Source: Bacteroidia bacterium
GTDB taxonomy: Bacteria; Bacteroidota; Bacteroidia; UKL13-3
Direction of reading: 5' to 3'
Assembly: GCA_021740845.1 (NCBI GenBank)
Contig: JAIOYZ010000025.1
Span: 1-58,461 of the forward strand
Length of the DNA: 58,461 nt
The notes under the pieces are model-generated. The model did no database searches, was not told the origin of the DNA, and saw only the letters and a list, made by a program, of their open reading frames with translations. Position 1 is the stretch's first letter. Every line of letters starts with the position of its first letter. Shown piece by piece: positions 14,534 through 24,128 of this stretch. A program made the position numbers and the translations under genes.

Positions 14534-14567
14534 AAAAAAAGGCAACCATCACTGGCTGCCTTTTTTT
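14534..14567 (+). terminator. intrinsic terminator after recA
   Basis: AAAAAAAGGCA pairs with TGCCTTTTTTT. The A and T runs on both sides make it able to act in both directions, serving recA and the convergent YceI gene. Confidence 0.85.
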
Positions 14568-14645: not shown

Positions 14646-15194
14646 TTACTTAGCTTTTGGCAATAATACTACGCTTACTTTTACATCTATTTCTTCTGCA
14701 ATCTTTGCCGTAACAATAGTTGGAATCTCAATTTTATGATCCACATTTTTCACTTTAAAATTGCTCACCAAATGAATTGTGCCATCCTTTACAATAATGA
14801 CTCCTTCAATAGTTCTATCTTGCTCCACACCGTGAATATTTAATTTACCAGTTACCGTTACTTTGTATTCGCCATCCTTTGTTAAATCAATATTCTCATT
14901 CACCTTTCCTTTGAAACTGCTTTTAGGAAACTTATCGCTTTCCATGTATTTCTCATTGAAATGCTCTTCCATTAATTTGTTCTGAAACTGAAAGGATGTA
15001 TTGGTAATCATAAATGCCAACTCTTTTGTAGAAACATTCATTACCGCTAAAACGGTTTTGCATTCCCCTCTAATATCTTCCATAGGTGTGGTTGAGAAAA
15101 ATACCACATTACCCGCTTGGGTTGAAAAAACCTGTGCAACCGACATCAAACTTGAAGCCGCTGCAAAAACAAACAATACTAAATACTTTTTCAT
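14646..15194 (-). CDS. YceI family protein (first copy)
   Basis: A 182-residue exported protein (signal peptide MKKYLVLFVFAAASSLMSVAQ). The YceI lipocalin-like barrel binds polyisoprenoid lipids, including quinone-like molecules, in characterised members. Family pattern: FSTTPMEDIRG, FQFQNKLMEEHFNEKYMESDKFP near residues 67-89, then GKLNIHGVEQDRTIEG near 126-141. It is the last gene of the cytochrome run starting at 18323, 36 bp after the DUF5777 gene. A paralog of 196 residues sits at 22047-22637 in the regulator operon. Confidence 0.87.
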   Translation of the reverse strand: MKKYLVLFVFAAASSLMSVAQVFSTQAGNVVFFSTTPMEDIRGECKTVLAVMNVSTKELAFMITNTSFQFQNKLMEEHFNEKYMESDKFPKSSFKGKVNENIDLTKDGEYKVTVTGKLNIHGVEQDRTIEGVIIVKDGTIHLVSNFKVKNVDHKIEIPTIVTAKIAEEIDVKVSVVLLPKAK

Positions 15195-15230
15195 ATTCTT
15201 TTTAATTTATAATTTACTTACTCAATTACC

Positions 15231-16142
15231 TTACCACTTTTTTGCTTTCTTCTCTTTCTCCATAGAAAAAGTTCTGCTAATATTAAATCCTAATCTAACT
15301 CCTGCATTGGTCCAAGAGGTAGACGTTTCTCTCACCATTTGTTGTTCCAACATTCCCAATCCATTGCACACCATCAACTGAAACACGTGTCCTCCTGTTT
15401 CAATATCCACTCCAATAGCTAAGTAATCATACAACTTCTCTCCTGCTCTCGTTGTCATATCCGTTCCATTTAATCTTGGGTAGTATTCAAAATTTAAACG
15501 GAAGCTTCTATTCAACTTAATACTTCCACCAACTCCCATTGCATAAACAGTATTTGCATCTGTTTTTTTCTGAACCAAATTATAATGCGTTACACTGGGC
15601 GCAACTTGCAAACTCAATCTATCTCCAAATTTTCTAGCAATAATAATCTGATTGAAATAACTCATGCGAGAAGAAAAATAGTTGTTTCTATTGGGCTCTG
15701 TCCATTTCATAGTATTTACTCCAACATTACCGTAATAGCCAACACTAAAAGGCATTCCACCTTTACCTTTGCTTTGCTTTAGCAATTTAATCTTTAGGTT
15801 TCCATCGTAAGTTTTATTAAAAGAACTTCTAGCAAAACCAAGTTGAATTCTATCCGTAATACCATAATCAAAAACCAATCTCATATTGGCTTGATCCAAA
15901 CCCCAAAGCTCATAAGCACCTTTATTTACTTCACCAAAACGATGTAGAATCACAAAATTCAAATGCTTTCCCGCAACATGTTCAATACTTTGTCCTGTTA
16001 TTACTCTTGTAGATTTAAACGTTGCAAATACAGGAACTGGTTTTTGAGGATTTTCATTTTCTAACATATTTAACAAATCATCCTGCGCTTGAGTGCTTGT
16101 ACAAATAGCAATCATCAATAAACTCCATAAAAATTTCTTCAT
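15231..16142 (-). CDS. DUF5777 outer-membrane beta-barrel protein
   Basis: A 303-residue exported protein (signal peptide ending TSTQAQ) resembling the DUF5777 barrel family. Conserved-looking motifs are the SIEHVAGKHLNFVILHRFGE region near residues 53-72, DQANMRLVFDYGITDRIQLG near 83-102, and alternating hydrophobic beta-strands to the end. It probably sits in the outer membrane. It starts 3 bp after the CX4CH lipoprotein gene and precedes YceI by 36 bp, so it belongs with the cytochrome run. The molecular function of DUF5777 is not established; a conduit or anchor for the surface cytochromes is my inference. Confidence 0.8.
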   Translation of the reverse strand: MKKFLWSLLMIAICTSTQAQDDLLNMLENENPQKPVPVFATFKSTRVITGQSIEHVAGKHLNFVILHRFGEVNKGAYELWGLDQANMRLVFDYGITDRIQLGFARSSFNKTYDGNLKIKLLKQSKGKGGMPFSVGYYGNVGVNTMKWTEPNRNNYFSSRMSYFNQIIIARKFGDRLSLQVAPSVTHYNLVQKKTDANTVYAMGVGGSIKLNRSFRLNFEYYPRLNGTDMTTRAGEKLYDYLAIGVDIETGGHVFQLMVCNGLGMLEQQMVRETSTSWTNAGVRLGFNISRTFSMEKEKKAKKW

Positions 16143-16145
16143 ATC

Positions 16146-16496
16146 TTAATTATTTTTCGCTCCCGCATTTATCCAATTTGTTAATTTAGCGATATCAGAA
16201 CTAGCCATTGGACCACTTGTAGGCATGGTTCTTTCTGTTATTGCTCTAGCCTTTACCCTTTCAATATTGCCACTTAGCCCAACGTATGTCGACAAATCTG
16301 GGGATTGCATACCCGCAATATGACAACCACTATAAGCACAATTTGCAGTCATTAGAGGTTTGATGTCTGCCGCATAAGTATAAGTAGTAGTATCGTTTCC
16401 TGTAAAACTATTAGGATACAACTCTTCTTCGTTATCCTTGTAACAAGAGGTAAGACTAATGCTTACTACTATAAGTCCAAAAATTCTCTTTATCAT
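16146..16496 (-). CDS. small cytochrome-c-like lipoprotein with CX4CH motif
   Basis: A 116-residue predicted lipoprotein (lipobox ending SLTSC at about residue 18). One cytochrome-c-like domain follows: DIKPLMTANCAYSGCH has a haem-type motif with four residues between the cysteines (CX4CH) instead of two, and a distal Met appears in ERTMPTSGPM, in the MP position usual for these domains. It ends in KLTNWINAGAKNN, the common final helix. It lies 1 bp after the 154-residue cytochrome gene and 3 bp before DUF5777. Haem attachment at CX4CH needs testing. Confidence 0.78.
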   Translation of the reverse strand: MIKRIFGLIVVSISLTSCYKDNEEELYPNSFTGNDTTTYTYAADIKPLMTANCAYSGCHIAGMQSPDLSTYVGLSGNIERVKARAITERTMPTSGPMASSDIAKLTNWINAGAKNN

Positions 16497-16497
16497 A

Positions 16498-16962
16498 TTA
16501 ATTTATTTCTAATTTATTTGTAGTTACTCCATGACAGCTATTGCAACTTCCACCTTCATATTTTTGGTTCATATATTTTGTGTTTGAACCAACCGTTATG
16601 CTTGGATAACAGCCTCCTTTAAAATCTATAATTTGATTGGTATAAAAATTTCCGATTTTATCTGAAACCAAACGCTTAATTAAAGCACCTTGCTTGTTGG
16701 GCTTTTCCCACAACTCAATTGTAGCATTGGTTTGTGGGCTATTTCCGCTAGAATATACCGTTCCCGCAACTGTCCACCAGCCAGCTTCTCTTACAGCCTC
16801 TGAACCACTTACATTGTGACAGCTTCCACAATTTTCACCAGCATTATGGCTTTTTTCGTCAGAGCTACTTTCTTCAAGATTGGCATTTATTTCATCTACA
16901 TGCGAACACGCAAACACAAATGTCATAAATACCGCCAATACCAATACTTTATTCAAAATCAT
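16498..16962 (-). CDS. lipoprotein with two CXXCH motifs (copy B)
   Basis: A 154-residue predicted lipoprotein (lipobox near residue 19, VFAC). It has two canonical haem motifs, CGSCH near residues 45-49 and CNSCH near 140-144, flanking a beta-rich middle (WWTVAGTVYSSGNSPQTNATI, SITVGSNTKYMNQK) that looks like a carboxypeptidase-regulatory or Ig-type fold. It is a close paralog of the 155-residue gene at 17112-17579, from a tandem duplication. Role: probably surface or periplasmic electron transfer; this is inferred from the motifs only. Confidence 0.8.
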   Translation of the reverse strand: MILNKVLVLAVFMTFVFACSHVDEINANLEESSSDEKSHNAGENCGSCHNVSGSEAVREAGWWTVAGTVYSSGNSPQTNATIELWEKPNKQGALIKRLVSDKIGNFYTNQIIDFKGGCYPSITVGSNTKYMNQKYEGGSCNSCHGVTTNKLEIN

Positions 16963-16988
16963 TTTTCTATTTTTCTATTCCAAAAATA

Positions 16989-17111
16989 CTAAATATTTGG
17001 ATACCCTTTCTCAACCCAAATCTGTATTTGTTTGATTTTACAATCCTCTAATTTGCCTCCTTTAGGCATTGCAGAAAGGGTGAAATTTGCCATATACTTG
17101 GCAGCAATTTT
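16989..17111 (-). pseudogene. C-terminal remnant of a cytochrome lipoprotein gene
   Basis: Forty codons and a TAG whose translation (SAMPKGGKLEDCKIKQIQ and WVEKGYPNI) closely copies the last 40 residues of the diheme lipoprotein at 17604-18323 (SAMPKGGKLDDCKIKQIQ, WIDKGYPNN). It has no start codon and no haem motif. It begins directly after the TAG of the 155-residue gene and in the same frame. It is the residue of a duplicated gene pair whose second diheme gene was mostly deleted. Confidence 0.85.
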
Positions 17112-17579
17112 CTAATTAATTGTCAATTTCCCTGTACTTACGCCATGACAACTATTACAACTACCACCATTAAATTTTTGGTTCATATAAATTGTTTTTG
17201 AACCAACAGTTATACTTGGATAACATCCTCCATTAAAATCAATAGTTTGGTTGGTATAGAAATTCCCTTTGCTATCAGAAACTAATCGCTTTATTAATTT
17301 ACCTTGTTTGTTTGGCTTTTCCCATAATTCAATGGTAGCATTCTTTTGAGGGCTAGTTCCATTTGAAAATACAGTTCCTGCCACTGTCCACCAACCTCCT
17401 TCTCTTACAGCTTCCGATCCACTTACATTATGGCAACTTGCACAATTTTGTCCCGGGTTATGACTTTCATCTTCTCCATCACCACTTTCTCTTGAATCTG
17501 TGCTCACTTGATCTGAATGAGAGCAAGCAATAACAAAAGCCGAAAACACCAACATTATAAATATTTTATTCCACTTCAT
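17112..17579 (-). CDS. lipoprotein with two CXXCH motifs (copy A)
   Basis: A 155-residue paralog of the 154-residue gene just downstream, with the same order: lipobox (VIAC near residue 19), acidic linker, CASCHNVSGSEAVRE, a beta-rich middle (WWTVAGTVFSNGTSPQKNATI), and C-terminal CNSCHGVSTGKL. The two share most residues between the haem motifs and differ mainly in the linker. It ends in TAG, immediately followed in frame by the remnant at 16989-17111. It lies 24 bp after the diheme gene and is probably part of the same transcript. Confidence 0.8.
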   Translation of the reverse strand: MKWNKIFIMLVFSAFVIACSHSDQVSTDSRESGDGEDESHNPGQNCASCHNVSGSEAVREGGWWTVAGTVFSNGTSPQKNATIELWEKPNKQGKLIKRLVSDSKGNFYTNQTIDFNGGCYPSITVGSKTIYMNQKFNGGSCNSCHGVSTGKLTIN

Positions 17580-17603
17580 TTCTTTTCCCCTTCACTTATT
17601 AAA

Positions 17604-18323
17604 TTAATTATTAGGATACCCTTTATCAATCCATTTCTGAATTTGTTTGATTTTGCAATCATCCAATTTACCACCTTTAGGCATGGCAGAATAAGGCGAA
17701 AGTTGATTTATACTGCCCATCAACTTTCCATTTGCAGCAATCGAAGCCAAACCAGAATAAGTACTTACATCAATTCCGCCTCCAGCATTTGCAGGGTTGT
17801 GGCATCCAAAGCAATAAGTATTTATAGTTTTAGAAACAATGCCCGAATAGGTAACATTGGTAGTATCACAGGCACCAGAATTACAGGTTAAATTCTTTGC
17901 TCCCTGGTTTATCCATTTTGCAATCATTGCCTTTTGCTCTGTAGATAAAGCAGCATTTGGCGGTGGTGGCATTCTTTCCTTTGAGCTAAATAAAGACTCA
18001 TAAATTTCTGTTTTGTTTGGATTATTTGGAACCACTTTGGTAGTACTTAATACCATTTCATAAGAGTACAAACGAACACCATCTTCCGCAGTTCCAGCAT
18101 CATGACAACCACTCATGGCACAATTAGAATTCAATATAGGCAAAATGTCTTTGTCAAAATAAACCACATTTGAATCACAAGGATCTGGGTTGGTATTTCC
18201 TCCGCCTCCACCATTATTATTTGTTGGTGTGCCAGTAACCAAAACTTCTGGGCTATGCTTACAAGAAGAAATTCCTATTACTAGGGAAACGATTACAATT
18301 GATACTTTAGTTAATGCTCTCAT
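17604..18323 (-). CDS. cytochrome-c-like lipoprotein with one CX4CH and one CXXCH motif
   Basis: A 239-residue predicted lipoprotein (lipobox ISSC near residue 21) with a Gly/Asn-rich linker and two planctomycete-type cytochrome-c domains in series. Domain 1: NCAMSGCHDAG (CX4CH) with a distal ERMPPPPNA. Domain 2: TYCFGCHNPAN (CXXCH) with SAMPKGGKL. Both end in the usual W-I-x-x-G-A/Y helix. It is the first gene of the cytochrome run. The predicted LytTR operator lies 62 bp upstream of the ATG. The C-terminal 40 residues recur as a remnant at 16989-17111. Confidence 0.82.
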   Translation of the reverse strand: MRALTKVSIVIVSLVIGISSCKHSPEVLVTGTPTNNNGGGGGNTNPDPCDSNVVYFDKDILPILNSNCAMSGCHDAGTAEDGVRLYSYEMVLSTTKVVPNNPNKTEIYESLFSSKERMPPPPNAALSTEQKAMIAKWINQGAKNLTCNSGACDTTNVTYSGIVSKTINTYCFGCHNPANAGGGIDVSTYSGLASIAANGKLMGSINQLSPYSAMPKGGKLDDCKIKQIQKWIDKGYPNN

Positions 18324-18384
18324 ATGGTTGAAAATTGATGAAACAAATCTGCTATATTAAATGGTGTTTGTAAAATTTTTGTCT

Positions 18385-18415
18385 CCCAATCGGGAAAAAT
18401 ATATTCCGAATCGGG
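18385..18415 (-). promoter_or_regulatory. predicted LytTR operator: two 10-bp direct repeats 21 bp apart
   Basis: On the minus strand CCCGATTCGG (18406-18415) and CCCGATTGGG (18385-18394) are in direct orientation with starts 21 bp apart, i.e. two helical turns. The match extends outward as TTTnCCCGATTnGGA. This is the geometry of LytTR-type response-regulator sites (two direct repeats with about 12 bp between). It lies between the LytTR gene and the cytochrome run, upstream of a weak -7-like CAGATTTG (minus strand, 18344-18351), as expected for an activator site. Confidence 0.6.
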
Positions 18416-18425
18416 CAAATTGGAT

Positions 18426-19187
18426 TTATTCTATTCCAATCAACCATTGCTTAAAGTCTGGCGAACGTTCTGCTGAAACAACAATTTCATCAGAATAATT
18501 GGGATTCAACACCAATTTCACCCTCGATTTAGAATGGGTAAACATCTGCTCTATAGATTTAATATTTACAATAAATTGCCTATTAATTCTGTAAAAAACC
18601 TTTGGATCAACCATCCCTTGCACTTCATCTAAATGAAAATCCATAAGCATTTTATGCCCATCAAACGTACATAAATATTCTGCCTTATCCTCTGTAAAAA
18701 AGTAAGCTATATCTGCTATTTCAACCACCTTAATTGCCTGACCCAATTTAATAACAATTCGTTTCTGAAAACCTTTGTTTGGCGTTTGAAAAACTTTTAA
18801 TAATTCTGCAATTTCTAGCTTTTCTTGAGGCTTAGATAATTTCTTAAACTTATCCACTGCAACTTGCAAGTCTTGTTTCTTTAAAGGCTTTAGCAAATAA
18901 TCAATACTATTTAGTTTAAAAGCCTTAATCGCAAATTCATCGTAAGCAGTTATGAAAATAACTGGCGTTAAAATCTCCACTTGTTGGATAATTTCAAAAC
19001 TATCTCCATCCGCCAAATGCACATCCATAAATATCAAATCCGCCTGCTTATTGGTTTTTAAATATGCTACCGATGTTTGAACACTATCAAAAACCTCCAA
19101 AACCTCAAAGTCGTAATCCAAACTCTTCAACAAAGAAATCAATCGCTCAACAGCAGATTCTTCATCTTCAATTATTACTATTTTCAT
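18426..19187 (-). CDS. LytTR-family response regulator
   Basis: A 253-residue two-component regulator. Receiver domain in residues 1-120: acidic pocket IIEDEE near 5-10, phospho-acceptor Asp55 in LIFMDVHLADGD, Thr in PVIFITAYDE and Lys in YLLKPLKKQDL. LytTR DNA-binding domain in about 145-250 (KVVEIADIAYFFTEDKAEYL; FYRINRQFIVNIKSIE). It overlaps the sensor kinase gene by 20 bp, so they are made together and are almost certainly partners. The direct repeats 10 bp beyond its stop are the obvious candidate target. Confidence 0.93.
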   Translation of the reverse strand: MKIVIIEDEESAVERLISLLKSLDYDFEVLEVFDSVQTSVAYLKTNKQADLIFMDVHLADGDSFEIIQQVEILTPVIFITAYDEFAIKAFKLNSIDYLLKPLKKQDLQVAVDKFKKLSKPQEKLEIAELLKVFQTPNKGFQKRIVIKLGQAIKVVEIADIAYFFTEDKAEYLCTFDGHKMLMDFHLDEVQGMVDPKVFYRINRQFIVNIKSIEQMFTHSKSRVKLVLNPNYSDEIVVSAERSPDFKQWLIGIE

Positions 19188-22050
19188 TTGATTTTATATA
19201 AGGGATTTTCACTATAAACGAGTCATTATTTTTCTCTATCAACACCTTCAAAGCTTGTAAAAGCTCATACCTCCTAATAATATTATTTAATCCAGTTTTG
19301 GTTGATGGTTCGCTACTACTTTTTATTTGAAGTTTATTCTTTACCAAAAAATAATAATCAGAAAAAGGTTCAATTCTTATTTCTAAAGGATGTGCCTTAG
19401 AAACTACATTGTGCTTAATTGCATTCTCCACCAAAATCTGCAAAGTCATTGGTGCTATATAACTTGAACTCTCCTTTAATTCAGGCGCAACTATTAGGTT
19501 CAAATTTTCTCTAAACCTCTTTTTTTGAATAAAATAATAATCATCTAAAATAGCCAATTCATCTTTCAAAGGAATCAAATCCATTTCCTTGTATTGCAAA
19601 ATATTTCTAAAAAAATCTGATAGATGTTCCACATAAGCAACGGCATCGCTTGGGTTCAACTCAATAATTCCAGATAAGGTATTAAAGCTATTGAATAAAA
19701 AATGTGGATTCACCTGATTCCTTAAAGTATCCAATTGAAACATTACCTTTTCATTATACAACTCTTCTTCTTTTCGCCTTTTCTGGGTAATTAAATAAAA
19801 AGCCAACCAAGTAAAAAACACCAAAAGAAAACCCATAAACACAAAAAACCAAACGCTTTGATAATATGGTTTACTTATCTCAAACGAATAACTGGCTTCC
19901 TCTTCAGTTACAAAATTATTACTCGGCAATGCCTTAATTCGCAAAGTATACTTCCCTGCTGGCAATTGAGGATAGGTAATTCTTAAATTCCTAGACTTAA
20001 TCCATTCTCTATCGTAACCTTCTAACTTTATCTGATAATTAACTTCCTCTGGCATATGATACCAGACACCAATATAATCAAAACTCAAGTTATTCTCAGA
20101 TGAATTAAAAACCCTATTCGGCGTTTTATCAAACTCCTCTAAAAACAAAAAGGCTTTCTTTATTATCGGTTTAGGTCCTTTCCACAACAAATTTCTACAA
20201 GGATCATAAATTACAATTCTATTTCCCGCTCCAATAAAAATTCTCCCATCATCTGCATTGCAACTTACTTTATTAACCAATTCACCTTCCTCAAATCCAA
20301 TCTCCTTATCGTGGTATAACATATTTCCATTTAATATATTTACCATGTCTATTCCCTTACCATTCGCAAGAATTAAATTATCTCTATGGTCGGCTATAAT
20401 AGAACCATACCCCATCTCCCTAATTCCATTCTTACTTCCAAAACTTACAAACTTAGTTCCATCCCATTTAAACAATCCTGCATCTGGAGAATTAAACCAC
20501 AAATTGTACAAATTATCCTCGCATATAGAATTAATAATACCAGTATTCAATCCATCTTTTTTGCCGTATTTTTTTACCCCATCAGGAGTAATTGCTACCA
20601 ATCCATTTCCATCTGTTCCTAACCAAACTATTCCTTTAGAATCTACAAATACCTGATAATAATAAAAAGATGCATTTTGAAGGTTTTTGGGAATTGAAAC
20701 AAATCCTACCTGATTCAAATTGGTTCCATTTTTAAAGCAAGACAATCCTCCCAATGTTGCCATCCATATTGTATTACCTAATCCAGAAATAGATATAACA
20801 TTATTGTTTTGCAGGCCATTTTTTTCATTAAAATTTAACAGCTCTTTAGTTTTTGGTTCGAACCTAAAAACGCCTTTACCAAAAGTCCCAAACCACACAA
20901 ACCCACTGCTATCACAAAAAATACTTACCGCTTGAATATTTTTTATTTTATCTGGCAAATTAAGGTAACTCCCATTCTTCCAAGCATAGGTTTGTTTGGT
21001 ATCGCTAAACCATAAAATACCATTTCTGTCTGAACCAATACTTTGAACCCCACCTTTCGAAAATTTAGGCAATTGAATAAACGAGAATAGCTTATTCACG
21101 GTAACCACATGTTCCGATTTATCACTTATCCATAAATTCCCTTCTTTATCTTCTGCAATCCCAGAAATCCTGTTATTTACAATTGAATTTTGCTTGTTTA
21201 ATTTAAGAGTTATTTCATTGTTCTCCACCAATAACAAACCACTATCTTCAGTGGCAATCCAAACATGACTTTGCTCTTTAACTATCTGAACAATGGCACC
21301 AAATTGCCAGATTCCTGATTTAATAAATGGATGTAATTCTTGAGAACCTGCATTCATTTCAAAAATCCCCATAGATTGGGTGCCAAATAATAGCGCGCCT
21401 TTTTTCCAAGGAACTATATCCGTAATAATTGGATCAGAAAGAAATTCATTTTTCTCAAACGGCCTGCAAATTGGAATACCCTTTTGTATACTTCCAATAG
21501 ATAATCCATTGTCTGTTCCAACCCAAACAAATCCTTTAGAATCCAATTCAAGGGCATTAATATCCTTAGATACCAAACCATCTTTTTCAAGCAATTGATA
21601 TTGCTTTTCATTTTTAATAACAAACACTCCAGAGCCTTTGGTGCCAAGCCAAATTTCACCATTTAATCTAAATGCTAAACTAGAAATACCCGCCCCATCT
21701 TGGTTATGAAAACTAGTTAATTTATGTAGAACTCTATCTTTTAAAAAATAAACATTCCCTTTATTAGTTCCCACCCAAACTTGCTTTTTCTCGTCATTTT
21801 TAATTACCGTAATTTTTTGATTTAAAATAGAATCTGGAAAAGGATAATGATCCACATTCATACCATCGTGTTGAAACAAACCCAATTGTGTACCCATCCA
21901 TAAAAACCCTTGCTCACCTGCATAAATCTTCGAAACCTTCAACCCAATATACTCGTGCTCAAATGTATTTATCCTAACCAATGGTGCTTGGGAATACCCT
22001 TTAAAAAAGGCAAAAAACAAGGCAACATTTATTATTAACCTGAATTTCAT
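19168..22050 (-). CDS. sensor histidine kinase with periplasmic beta-propeller (LytS-type kinase)
   Basis: A 960-residue sensor. A signal peptide (residues 1-20) precedes a long run of two-component-regulator propeller repeats with the WxGT signature (WVGTNKGNVYFL, WLGTKGSGVFVI, WVGTDNGLSIG). Then come a Y_Y_Y domain near 650-715, one membrane segment near 725-748, and a His_kinase domain with NPHFLFNSFNTL (phospho-acceptor His) and ATPase N-box LVENAIKH. Unlike polysaccharide-locus hybrid sensors it has no receiver or AraC domain; the separate LytTR regulator follows. Its start overlaps the YceI stop by 4 bp. The ligand is unknown. Confidence 0.92.
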   Translation of the reverse strand: MKFRLIINVALFFAFFKGYSQAPLVRINTFEHEYIGLKVSKIYAGEQGFLWMGTQLGLFQHDGMNVDHYPFPDSILNQKITVIKNDEKKQVWVGTNKGNVYFLKDRVLHKLTSFHNQDGAGISSLAFRLNGEIWLGTKGSGVFVIKNEKQYQLLEKDGLVSKDINALELDSKGFVWVGTDNGLSIGSIQKGIPICRPFEKNEFLSDPIITDIVPWKKGALLFGTQSMGIFEMNAGSQELHPFIKSGIWQFGAIVQIVKEQSHVWIATEDSGLLLVENNEITLKLNKQNSIVNNRISGIAEDKEGNLWISDKSEHVVTVNKLFSFIQLPKFSKGGVQSIGSDRNGILWFSDTKQTYAWKNGSYLNLPDKIKNIQAVSIFCDSSGFVWFGTFGKGVFRFEPKTKELLNFNEKNGLQNNNVISISGLGNTIWMATLGGLSCFKNGTNLNQVGFVSIPKNLQNASFYYYQVFVDSKGIVWLGTDGNGLVAITPDGVKKYGKKDGLNTGIINSICEDNLYNLWFNSPDAGLFKWDGTKFVSFGSKNGIREMGYGSIIADHRDNLILANGKGIDMVNILNGNMLYHDKEIGFEEGELVNKVSCNADDGRIFIGAGNRIVIYDPCRNLLWKGPKPIIKKAFLFLEEFDKTPNRVFNSSENNLSFDYIGVWYHMPEEVNYQIKLEGYDREWIKSRNLRITYPQLPAGKYTLRIKALPSNNFVTEEEASYSFEISKPYYQSVWFFVFMGFLLVFFTWLAFYLITQKRRKEEELYNEKVMFQLDTLRNQVNPHFLFNSFNTLSGIIELNPSDAVAYVEHLSDFFRNILQYKEMDLIPLKDELAILDDYYFIQKKRFRENLNLIVAPELKESSSYIAPMTLQILVENAIKHNVVSKAHPLEIRIEPFSDYYFLVKNKLQIKSSSEPSTKTGLNNIIRRYELLQALKVLIEKNNDSFIVKIPYIKSNENSNN

Positions 22051-22637
22051 TTCTTAGCAAATAAGGATGAGAATTCAACCATAATCTCTTCCGAAATTTT
22101 TTGATTTACGATGGCCGGTATATTAATTTCATGGTCGCTCAAAACAACATTAAAAACAGACAGCACATTTATTTCATTTCCTCTAATTTGGATGGTAATT
22201 TTTATTACTCTTTCCTGGGATACGCCATGTATAATCAATTTCCCTTTTGCCCTTACAGTATATTTACCATCCTTACTCCAATCAATTTTCTCAATTATTT
22301 TTCCAGAATAAGAACAAAATTCATACTTGGCAGATTCAATATATCGCTCATTAAAATGTTCTCGTTGCAAATCACTATTAAACCCAATAAATGAGTTATT
22401 CTCTACCGTAACTGCAAAGGTATTTTGCTCTGGATTAATTAGGCCTTTTAAGTGAACTGAACTAGCCTTAATTACTTCTAAATTGGCATAAGAAAAAAAA
22501 GAAATTTTCCCAGATTTTAAGGGATAAAGTGCCGCATTTTGTCCCAATAATTGCGACGAAATCAAAACTAAAAACAAAACGGAAACGTATTGTAAAAATA
22601 ATCTTTGGACCCTAGAAACCATGCCCAAAGATACCAA
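22047..22637 (-). CDS. YceI family protein (second copy)
   Basis: A 196-residue exported YceI-like barrel, paralog of the one at 14646-15194. It shares the order LQREHFNERYIESAKYEF near residues 87-104, then YTVRAKGKLIIHGVSQERVIK near 125-145 and a C-terminal HEINIPAIVNQKISEEIMVE. Its stop overlaps the start of the sensor kinase gene (ATGA), so the lipid-binding protein and the sensor are translationally coupled; it could present or withhold the ligand that the kinase senses. The start at 22637 includes a somewhat long N-terminus before the hydrophobic signal; a later start is possible. Confidence 0.83.
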   Translation of the reverse strand: MVSLGMVSRVQRLFLQYVSVLFLVLISSQLLGQNAALYPLKSGKISFFSYANLEVIKASSVHLKGLINPEQNTFAVTVENNSFIGFNSDLQREHFNERYIESAKYEFCSYSGKIIEKIDWSKDGKYTVRAKGKLIIHGVSQERVIKITIQIRGNEINVLSVFNVVLSDHEINIPAIVNQKISEEIMVEFSSLFAKK

Positions 22638-22659: not shown

Positions 22660-23388
22660 CTAAAACTCGCTGGCCTTTATAAATTCAGCCAATTGTGGAT
22701 TTCCCGAATCTCTTAAGTTGTCTTTATTCCCCTCCCACAAACTTTCGCCTTTATAAATAAAAACAATATGATCACCCATATCAAAAACACTTTTTATATC
22801 ATGAGAATTTACAATGGTTGTAATATCATATTCCTCCGTAATTTCCATAATTAACTCATCAATAACCCTAGAAGTTAATGGATCCAAACCACTATTTGGT
22901 TCATCGCAAAATAGATATTTAGGATTCAAAGCAATGGCCCTTGCAATACCAACCCTCTTCTTCATTCCCCCACTAATATTAGATGGAAACAATTTATTGG
23001 CATTATCTAGCTTCACCCTTTTCAAGCAAAAATTTACCCTATCCAAAATCTCGCTTTTGCCCATAGTTGTAAACATCCTCAAAGGAAAAGCAACATTATC
23101 CTCTACACTCAATGAATCAAATAAAGCTCCTCCTTGAAACAGCATTCCTATCTCTTGCCTTAATTTTTTCTTTTGGTAATAATCTAGTCTTAGAAAATCT
23201 CTATTGTCAAAATCAATAATGCCACTATCTGGTTCTAATAAACCAACCATGCATTTCATTAATACACTCTTTCCTCCTCCACTGGCTCCAATTACAAAAC
23301 TGCATTTGCCTTTTTTAAAGGTTGCACTTACGTTCTTTAAAACAGGCCTACCATCAAATGATTTGGTTATATCTTTTAATTCGATCAT
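22660..23388 (-). CDS. ABC transporter ATP-binding protein, MlaF type
   Basis: A 242-residue ABC ATPase: Walker A GASGGGKSVLMKC near residues 33-45, Q-loop MLFQGGALFDSLSV, signature NISGGMKKRVGIARA near 136-150, Walker B KYLFCDEP, and the H-loop in IVNSHD. It resembles MlaF, the ATPase of lipid-trafficking transporters that maintain outer-membrane asymmetry. The permease gene overlaps by 4 bp upstream. An MCE-domain protein (MlaD) is not in the window. It ends 22 bp before the second YceI gene on the same strand. Confidence 0.9.
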   Translation of the reverse strand: MIELKDITKSFDGRPVLKNVSATFKKGKCSFVIGASGGGKSVLMKCMVGLLEPDSGIIDFDNRDFLRLDYYQKKKLRQEIGMLFQGGALFDSLSVEDNVAFPLRMFTTMGKSEILDRVNFCLKRVKLDNANKLFPSNISGGMKKRVGIARAIALNPKYLFCDEPNSGLDPLTSRVIDELIMEITEEYDITTIVNSHDIKSVFDMGDHIVFIYKGESLWEGNKDNLRDSGNPQLAEFIKASEF

Positions 23389-24128
23389 TTGTAAAGCATC
23401 AATTGAGTTAAAATATAATCAAAGAAAATAATTGATATACAACTTTGAACCACCGCCTTGGTACTTGCCGATCCAACTTCCAAAGCCCCTCCTTCAGTTT
23501 GATACCCATTGTGCGCCGATATAGTTGCTATTAAAAATGCAGAAAAAAACGCTTTGGTTAATGCATGGGTAATGAAGAAAGGATCAAAATCCATTCGCAA
23601 TCCTTGTATAAACATATCAACCGTTACAATTTCAGAGAAATAACAAGAAATTGCACCCCCAACATTTGCTAAAAACATACTGTAAGTAACCAAGGCAGGA
23701 ACAGAAATTAAAGCTGCAATAATTTTAGGTAAAACCACATAACTAGCTGCATTAACTCCCATAATTTCTAAGGCATCTATTTGTTCACTCACCTTCATTG
23801 TGCCAATTTCAGAAGCAATGTTCGAACCAATTTTACCTGCCATTACCAAAGCCGTAATGGTTGGCGAAAATTCTAAAATATTAGCATCACGCACAATCCT
23901 ACCCAAAATAGTCATCGGCACCAAACTGCCTTGTAACTGACTACCAAATTGAATTACCGCCACAGCACCAATAAATGTAGAAATAATGGAAACAATTCCA
24001 AAGGAATCATTTCCCATTTTATAAACTTCCATCATCAGAGAACGCCAAAACATCATCCATTTATCTGGCGGCCTAAAACAAGATCTTAAAAACAGTAAAT
24101 ACCTACCGAAGCTTTCTAAATAAGTCAT
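23385..24128 (-). CDS. MlaE-type ABC transporter permease
   Basis: A 247-residue inner-membrane permease of the MlaE/YrbE family with about five hydrophobic segments. The family core is VAVIQFGSQLQG near 56-67, then FSPTITALVMAGKIGSNIAS near 88-107, GTMKVSEQIDALEIMGVNAA, and a hydrophobic C-terminus. It works with the overlapping MlaF-type ATPase to move phospholipids between the membranes. It is divergent from the SDR gene across 134 bp, with no clear promoter match beyond a GATTTTTG box. Confidence 0.9.
   Translation of the reverse strand: MTYLESFGRYLLFLRSCFRPPDKWMMFWRSLMMEVYKMGNDSFGIVSIISTFIGAVAVIQFGSQLQGSLVPMTILGRIVRDANILEFSPTITALVMAGKIGSNIASEIGTMKVSEQIDALEIMGVNAASYVVLPKIIAALISVPALVTYSMFLANVGGAISCYFSEIVTVDMFIQGLRMDFDPFFITHALTKAFFSAFLIATISAHNGYQTEGGALEVGSASTKAVVQSCISIIFFDYILTQLMLYK

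Follow-up and report, generated by a model that had tools for sequence, protein, structure and literature searches.

A YceI lipocalin, a propeller kinase and a LytTR regulator as the predicted switch of a probable envelope redox operon in Bacteroidota

What switches on an operon of small haem lipoproteins, and does the lipocalin encoded with the adjacent sensor kinase take part? This question is raised by nine minus-strand genes on a 58,461-nucleotide contig of Bacteroidia bacterium (lineage UKL13-3; GCA_021740845.1, JAIOYZ010000025.1), the whole of which we call the window. Four lipoproteins, a DUF5777 barrel and the lipocalin YceI_A make up the operon; upstream, a second lipocalin (YceI_B), a kinase with propeller repeats and a LytTR response regulator make up what we call the cassette. 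The gene set, positions, strand and overlaps of 4 and 20 bp given in an initial annotation agree with the open reading frames (ORFs) and Pfam matches. We propose that YceI_B, the kinase and the regulator form a circuit that activates the operon, a reading to which we give a probability of about 0.6. Comparison of sequences supports the link between kinase, operator and operon and the geometry of the promoter, and suggests that the cytochrome and barrel genes are probably switched on by the sensor-regulator pair.

Family assignments are in line with this proposal. Two proteins exceed the cut-off of Pfam YceI (PF04264, 23.7 bits), YceI_A with 46.2 and YceI_B with 30.8 bits, and a PF06580 kinase adjoins a Response_reg-LytTR regulator with a 20-bp overlap, as expected of a LytTR two-component system. 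None of the nine locus proteins matched an NCBIfam model above its cut-off.

Predicted operator and promoter

The 102-bp gap between the regulator gene and the first cytochrome gene contains CCCGATTCGG-N11-CCCGATTGGG, a direct repeat of the CCCGTTCAG type with a period of 21 bp upstream of the operon. The strict repeat pattern occurs once in the 4.09-Mb genome, and the site is the top-scoring one of the whole window. A paired-motif search over the stretches that follow the regulator in 17 cassette-bearing loci, with periods from 14 to 28, had its optimum at 21 (284 bits versus 157-214 at other periods, where 20 and 22 are shadows). One hundred dinucleotide shuffles reached 149 ± 6, with a maximum of 171, and a reduced set of 12 loci scored 189 versus 114 ± 5.5 (maximum 130). 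A generic LytTR consensus from the literature was rejected as the motif, being too degenerate to tell sites from noise, and a sigma-70 promoter scan performed no better than shuffles.

The site recurs in front of the operon in relatives. With a locus's own clade excluded from the matrix, 13 of 18 loci had their top site in front of the operon, including L124 and L071, which were outside the training set, and L029, where the cassette lies behind the operon; in L071 another position scores almost as high (20.3 vs 20.5). In G183 the cassette is downstream of the operon, which nevertheless has the site in front of it. Within the genus, all three cassette-bearing loci carry the operator, and the fetched cassette-free loci (11 of the genus and two of a neighbouring genus) score at most 8.5.

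We then asked for a score of at least 15 in 73 named loci outside the training set, a test that was not blind, since the rule for the upstream stretch had been revised after the results of a first round. The threshold was reached by 6 of the 15 loci with the kinase in the genome and by 1 of the 58 without it (Fisher 1.8e-4; rank test 0.011). Column-permuted matrices brought 0.21 of the 15 loci to the threshold on average and three at most (200 trials). In three of the six positives (L061, L094 and L106) the kinase is on another contig, as a trans-acting regulator predicts. An earlier count, which included some training loci, found such scores in 11 of 15 cassette loci versus 4 of 102 others, and two of these four (L111 and L023) lack an orthologous kinase. 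As far as sequence allows, a kinase whose regulon excludes the cytochrome genes, which the initial annotation had named as a refutation, is not indicated, given the operator predicted in front of them.

The promoter geometry is similarly constrained. A TAnnTTTG box (at most one mismatch) lies 63 nt (14 sites) or 64 nt (two sites) after the repeat start at 16 of 19 sites, against an average of 0.33 sites and a maximum of three at other offsets. The same spacing was found at 6 of 9 sites outside the training set and at 8 of 13 further hand-picked sites. For L042 the count took the promoter-proximal pair, even though the next one upstream, by one unit, has a higher score; L009, which has no clear pair, was omitted. 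Because this box occupies -12 to -5 in Flavobacterium psychrophilum, according to excerpts of PMC9723704, the repeats would lie at about -75 to -45, a position that would be typical of activators, and transcription of the operon is predicted to start at about 18339.

Sites are also found before YceI_B in L073, L137 and L149, with the box only in L149, and before further genes in L009, L042, L139 and L148. At L009 11546 and L042 7214, operator and -7 box precede a 138-aa lipoprotein with a weak lipocalin-like match, a candidate extra member of the regulon. Three operator-like units in tandem, at the 21-bp period, occur in L061 (8633-8684), L126 (7542-7593) and L042 (4845-4896). At the window genome's other DUF5777 locus, sites reach 11.5 at most.

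Distribution of the cassette

The cassette and the DUF5777 and cytochrome genes recur together in relatives, so that the neighbourhood is conserved beyond the window and the other refutation named in the initial annotation, a lack of such conservation, does not apply. In the genus, YceI_B was found in the window genome (G000), G304 and G053 among 19 genomes searched, some of them incomplete; in the other members, where the region was fetched whole, the operon directly follows MlaE-MlaF. Another genus of the family (L009, L042, L127, L128) has the order cassette, DUF5777, cytochromes, and a locus of another family (L029) has the operon and then the cassette. The order cassette and operon returns in ten further named loci (L058, L070, L071, L073, L088, L097, L103, L109, L114 and L124), and in L150 and L152 the cassette comes directly after DUF5777.

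A profile of thirteen cassette kinases was run against 64 genomes of the order, with at most 13 candidates scored in each. It recovered seven orthologues (859-1251 bits), all seven beside DUF5777 and four of them outside the profile (G053, G041, G037 and G024). The next nine kinases scored at most 331 bits, and no DUF5777 gene is known at any of their positions (for G304 and G308, places of DUF5777 are known from the fetched loci only). We also searched 65 genomes whose fetched DUF5777 locus had no upstream same-strand cassette, and 10 of them hold an orthologue (at least 623 bits). Those of L150, L151 and L152 are beside DUF5777, that of L126/L141 is about 8 kb away on the other strand, and six are away from DUF5777 (L137, L138, L139, L140, L148 and L149). 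Linkage between kinase and DUF5777 is thus common, not a rule. No kinase was found in the named isolates of Dyadobacter, Flammeovirga, Aquimarina and Fulvivirga that were checked.

Several observations weigh against the proposed circuit. Both the predicted binding and the control of expression are comparative predictions throughout. The top site is not before the operon in L009, L058, L070, L073 (where it is second best) and L097, and of the 15 loci with the kinase that were not used for training, 9 score under 15. Only degraded repeats are present in L058 and L097, and no convincing ones were found in L070, L100, L075, L108, L110 and L089; conversely, the kinase-negative L111 scores 16.9. The prediction that untested genomes lack the kinase failed in 5 of the 49 searched, a set drawn from 54 untested loci scoring below 15 (four were already covered and L105 was left out). 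Three of these unexpected kinases (L150, L151, L152) are beside a second DUF5777 copy, L106 has the operator, and L075 is a miss. Across the phylum, an orthologue (E at most 1e-150, best two candidates scored per genome) was present in 2 of 395 genomes, the window's own and G183. Because most DUF5777 genomes lack the kinase, the module appears from these gene inventories to work without it.

The haem lipoproteins, the barrel and the two lipocalins

The four lipoproteins carry seven haem motifs, namely CXXCH and CX4CH, two CXXCH, two CXXCH, and one CX4CH. The initial annotation was right to call all four cytochrome-like, although the CX4CH motif is present in only two. The 239-aa protein is clearly above the Pfam cut-offs (PSCyt1 45.5 bits, Cytochrome_CBB3 36.9 bits). 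The 155-aa protein is just over one of them (Cytochrom_C, 21.7 vs 21.3) and the 154-aa protein just under (Cytochrome_C7, 24.7 vs 24.8), which makes these two borderline c-type cytochromes by sequence. The 116-aa protein stays below its cut-off (15.8 vs 27). In an alignment of its family (90 rows picked by N-terminus, some near-duplicates), the last cysteine and the histidine of the motif are invariant (90/90) and a later Met-Pro is present in 89 rows. The spacing is CXXCH in 51 rows, CX4CH in 31, CX3CH in six and none of these in two. By its sequence, with haem motif and later Met-Pro, this family qualifies as a c-type cytochrome.

The 154-aa gene and a remnant at 16990-17076 were produced by a tandem duplication of 614-615 bp. 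The remnant, already pointed out in the initial annotation, duplicates the 3' end of the 239-aa gene; it is a duplication scar because the gap between the 154-aa and 155-aa genes retains the last codons of the neighbouring 239-aa gene. The cassette-bearing relatives G304 and G053 have a single copy of the duplicated lipoprotein.

The small cytochrome may be exported to the cell surface. Its N-terminus reads C-Y-[YK]-D-[NK]-E-E in most relatives, which resembles but does not equal the surface-export signal of Capnocytophaga lipoproteins in excerpts of PMC5080379. The Bacteroidota surface lipoprotein (LES) signal follows the lipid cysteine closely and consists of K-(D/E)2, Q-A-(D/E)2 or a run of acidic residues; the window protein (CYKDNEEE) does not contain the exact K-D/E-D/E. 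Of the 79 small family members that have a lipobox, 58 carry at least three acidic residues at +2 to +8, versus 2 of 27 and 1 of 25 longer lipoproteins. Surface export is supported more weakly than the link between kinase, operator and operon. Upstream of the cassette in G304, a 554-aa protein (L027:17819-19483, minus strand) has six haem motifs and an MtrC/MtrF-like match below the cut-off; the window genome matches its first 116 residues only (G000:C25).

DUF5777 (PF19089, 311.7 bits) had been noted as looking like an outer-membrane barrel, and modelling agrees, with weaker support than for the operator link. The model (predicted local distance difference test, pLDDT, 92.9) is a 12-strand barrel with structural matches to KdgM, NanC and FapF-like barrels (Z about 17); a PDB sequence search gave no match. 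Residues invariant over 70 rows include H67, K171, ETGGHVFQ and R290. The family was detected in 56 of 58 sampled genomes of the bacterial family, in 46 of 118 of the phylum and in none of 14 control genomes.

The gene company of DUF5777 was surveyed in 120 directons, five of them duplicates (the same genome reached by two routes); the 80 named loci were the best-ranking among 591. A cytochrome family member was found in 111 directons, YceI in 96 and an OB-fold protein in 46 (PF12869 in the members scanned), and some operons add a haem protein with a type IX secretion system (T9SS) tail. Among the nine directons without cytochrome, L068, L077, L106 and L111 have cytochromes just beyond the cut stretch and one sits at a contig end. 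Two from Dyadobacter (L064, L085) combine DUF5777 and YceI with a Rieske protein, which L104 has beside its cytochromes, and two from Flammeovirga encode a 162-aa protein, without a Pfam family in the one scanned (L082). The operons of L064 and L085 are headed by a gene that by eye resembles an extracytoplasmic function (ECF) sigma factor; in these operons, another regulator may control the module.

The second DUF5777 gene of the window genome is in a separate operon (L004, G000:C29:26000-44000) with an iron-sulfur (FeS) protein bearing a twin-arginine (TAT)-like signal, NrfD, a class I cytochrome, a haem EB_dh-like protein and a CX4CH lipoprotein, possibly a quinol-linked electron-transport complex. 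FeS and NrfD genes also adjoin DUF5777 in L040, L043, L045 and L075, and were not found beside it in L044 and L079. Hence, DUF5777 accompanies electron-transfer proteins in two ways, with cytochromes or Rieske proteins in the directons and with FeS-NrfD in the paralogous locus. This gene company lends a redox role of the module weaker support.

The model of YceI_B (AlphaFold2, pLDDT 92.3) has the YceI lipocalin fold, as judged by Foldseek, whose 21 matches at E at most 0.001 were without exception chains of YceI type and included BcnA, BcnB, E. coli YceI and polyisoprenoid-binding proteins. A PDB sequence search found nothing for YceI_B and one weak match, BcnB, for YceI_A. In a tree of 98 YceI proteins, a clade of 22 rows (support 100/99) consists entirely of kinase-adjacent proteins, those of L137, L127 and L128 included. 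This tree was made without L148-L152 and without three YceI hits under 80 bits, which include L116, whose best match is YceI_B and which is not kinase-adjacent. A quicker tree with the dropped and later rows placed all 27 kinase-adjacent rows, and no other, on one side of a branch (0.999). The paralogous YceI that the initial annotation took to link the two operons does so, although YceI_B belongs to this separate clade and was rejected as a local duplicate of YceI_A.

Table 1. Features of the locus, with positions in the window
Feature	Position	Strand	Basis
YceI_B, lipocalin of the kinase-adjacent clade	22047..22637	-	Pfam YceI, model, clade; N-terminal helix signal-peptide-like
Sensor kinase	19168..22050	-	Reg_prop propeller repeats, Y_Y_Y and LytS-type His_kinase (Pfam)
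LytTR response regulator	18426..19187	-	Response_reg 55.1 bits, LytTR 59.5 bits (Pfam)
Predicted operator, direct repeats CCCGATTCGG / CCCGATTGGG, period 21 bp	18384..18415	-	Form kept in relatives
Predicted -7 promoter box CAGATTTG	18344..18351	-	Consensus TAnnTTTG, 1 mismatch; 63 nt from repeat start
239-aa lipoprotein, two cytochrome c-like domains (CX4CH and CXXCH)	17604..18323	-	Pfam
155-aa lipoprotein, two CXXCH, transthyretin-like middle (weak match)	17112..17579	-	ORF, Pfam, motifs
Remnant, copy of 3' end of 239-aa gene	16990..17076	-	85% identity, 615-bp spacing, translation
154-aa lipoprotein, tandem-duplicate copy of 17112-17579	16498..16962	-	81% over 300 nt, spacing 614
116-aa lipoprotein, one CX4CH, N-terminus CYKDNEEELYP (surface-export-signal-like)	16146..16496	-	Motif, family alignment
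DUF5777 predicted outer-membrane barrel, 12 strands in model	15231..16142	-	Pfam 311.7 bits; model
YceI_A, lipocalin of the effector operon	14646..15194	-	Pfam 46.2 bits; tree
Inverted repeat and T run, probable terminator between the YceI_A operon and recA	14534..14567	-	Repeat search

For YceI_B, the sequence makes the ATG at 22622 a more likely start than the TTG at 22637. The inverted repeat between the operon and recA is absent from the output of the terminator scan. Genes named by eye from their translations as recA, ssb, ribosomal proteins and elongation factor G (EF-G) give the flanks a housekeeping character. MlaF- and MlaE-like genes, also named by eye, occupy 22660-24128 directly upstream, 22 bp from YceI_B. 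Many fetched loci of the family share this MlaE/MlaF synteny with the cytochrome-DUF5777-YceI operon, next to divergent short-chain dehydrogenase/reductase (SDR) and ispG-like genes, which suggests a connection to lipid transport.

What the module may do

Under the proposed circuit, YceI_B and the propeller kinase would sense a change in the envelope, the kinase would phosphorylate the regulator, and this would bind the paired repeats and activate an envelope redox module of haem lipoproteins, barrel and YceI_A. YceI_A would carry a redox-active lipid. YceI proteins of other species hold isoprenoids, as the initial annotation had stated and as excerpts of PMC9113575 state for most structurally solved relatives; by analogy, an isoprenoid quinone is the most likely cargo. 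The one- and two-haem outer-membrane lipoproteins would exchange electrons with this lipid, and the barrel would house or pass a partner molecule. The signal, the ligand, the electron partners, the direction of electron flow, and activation rather than repression are what we infer. Of the regulated outer-membrane electron-transfer or quinone-sensing unit first suggested, the comparative evidence favours a regulated, electron-transfer-like module of the outer membrane, but not quinone sensing.

The nearest functional precedent, by analogy, is BcnA-LcoA of Burkholderia cenocepacia, whose YceI lipocalin and cytochrome b561 keep lipid peroxidation in check (PMC9113575). The shared traits are a YceI lipocalin encoded with a haem redox protein and an envelope location; here, the haem proteins are c-type lipoproteins, accompanied by a DUF5777 barrel and by a second YceI with a two-component system. 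Modelled on this pair, with c-type lipoproteins replacing b561, the module could instead repair the envelope by quenching lipid peroxyl radicals or superoxide in the outer membrane, the kinase sensing oxidised lipid. The genetic tie of the Burkholderia pair to lipid peroxidation, the BcnA/BcnB-like fold of YceI_B and the lipid-transport genes upstream in much of the family speak for such a role. However, no cytochrome b561 was found among the ten window proteins scanned (the rest of the genome was not searched), and the paralogous DUF5777 gene is accompanied by respiratory genes for FeS and NrfD proteins. We consider envelope repair possible but rather unlikely.

Porin-cytochrome conduits such as MtrCAB and PioAB also encode haem proteins with an outer-membrane barrel, a large one of about 26 strands with a multihaem or decahaem periplasmic cytochrome. 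An Mtr-like surface conduit was rejected: with 12 strands in the barrel model and at most two haem motifs in any window protein, a conduit of this type is unlikely. The same two facts, and the lack of a decahaem partner in the locus, tell against extracellular electron transfer more generally, in which electrons from respiration would leave by the surface cytochromes, through or alongside the barrel, for acceptors outside the cell. The surface-signal-like N-terminus of the small cytochrome, the T9SS-tailed haem proteins, the FeS-NrfD-cytochrome genes beside the paralogue and the six-haem-motif protein of one relative with its sub-threshold MtrC/MtrF-like match fit this explanation, which we nonetheless regard as distinctly improbable. 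That cassette and operon are mere neighbours on a conserved stretch of chromosome, as might be read from the many genus members with the operon only and from the 6 of 10 kinases lying away from DUF5777, is very improbable, since gene orders differ between families, promoter spacing is fixed and the operator precedes the operon even with the kinase on another contig.

The proposed circuit has relatives among known regulators. AlgZR and other LytS/LytTR systems share the LytS-type kinase and LytTR regulator. The AlgR box is CCGTTCGTC (PMC4064291, in excerpt); compared with this core, the repeat units of the window read CCGATTCGG and CCGATTGGG, and CCGTTC is common to the box and many repeats of relatives. 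Unlike in those systems, the kinase here contains propeller repeats and is encoded alongside a YceI lipocalin, and the repeats are paired at a 21-bp period at a fixed distance from a Bacteroidota promoter. LuxPQ and TorTS are two-component systems with a periplasmic binding-protein partner. As in these, the gene of a periplasmic protein travels with that of the kinase, but here the partner is a lipocalin, and its contact with the kinase is a proposal.

A more tentative proposal, at somewhat less than even odds, makes YceI_B the half of the sensor that binds the ligand. Carrying quinone or oxidised lipid, the lipocalin would dock on the propeller kinase; the cell would in this way monitor its outer envelope for redox or lipid state and turn on a surface redox module to repair or drain it. 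To our knowledge, a two-component system with a lipocalin receptor would be the first of its kind, and no report of one was found in the open-licence literature searched. Neither the name DUF5777 nor a description of this gene set or circuit was found there either (subscription papers lie outside it), in agreement with the initial annotation, which knew of no described system with exactly this set.

Based on these findings, a redox control circuit for which we found no description is now testable, with YceI lipocalins proposed as partners of sensor kinases. The operator and its promoter geometry offer a handle: a reporter built on the 21-bp repeats would reveal the signal of YceI and kinase, and hence the purpose of the module. 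If the lipocalin-receptor proposal is true, these Bacteroidota would directly sense the redox or lipid state of the outer envelope.

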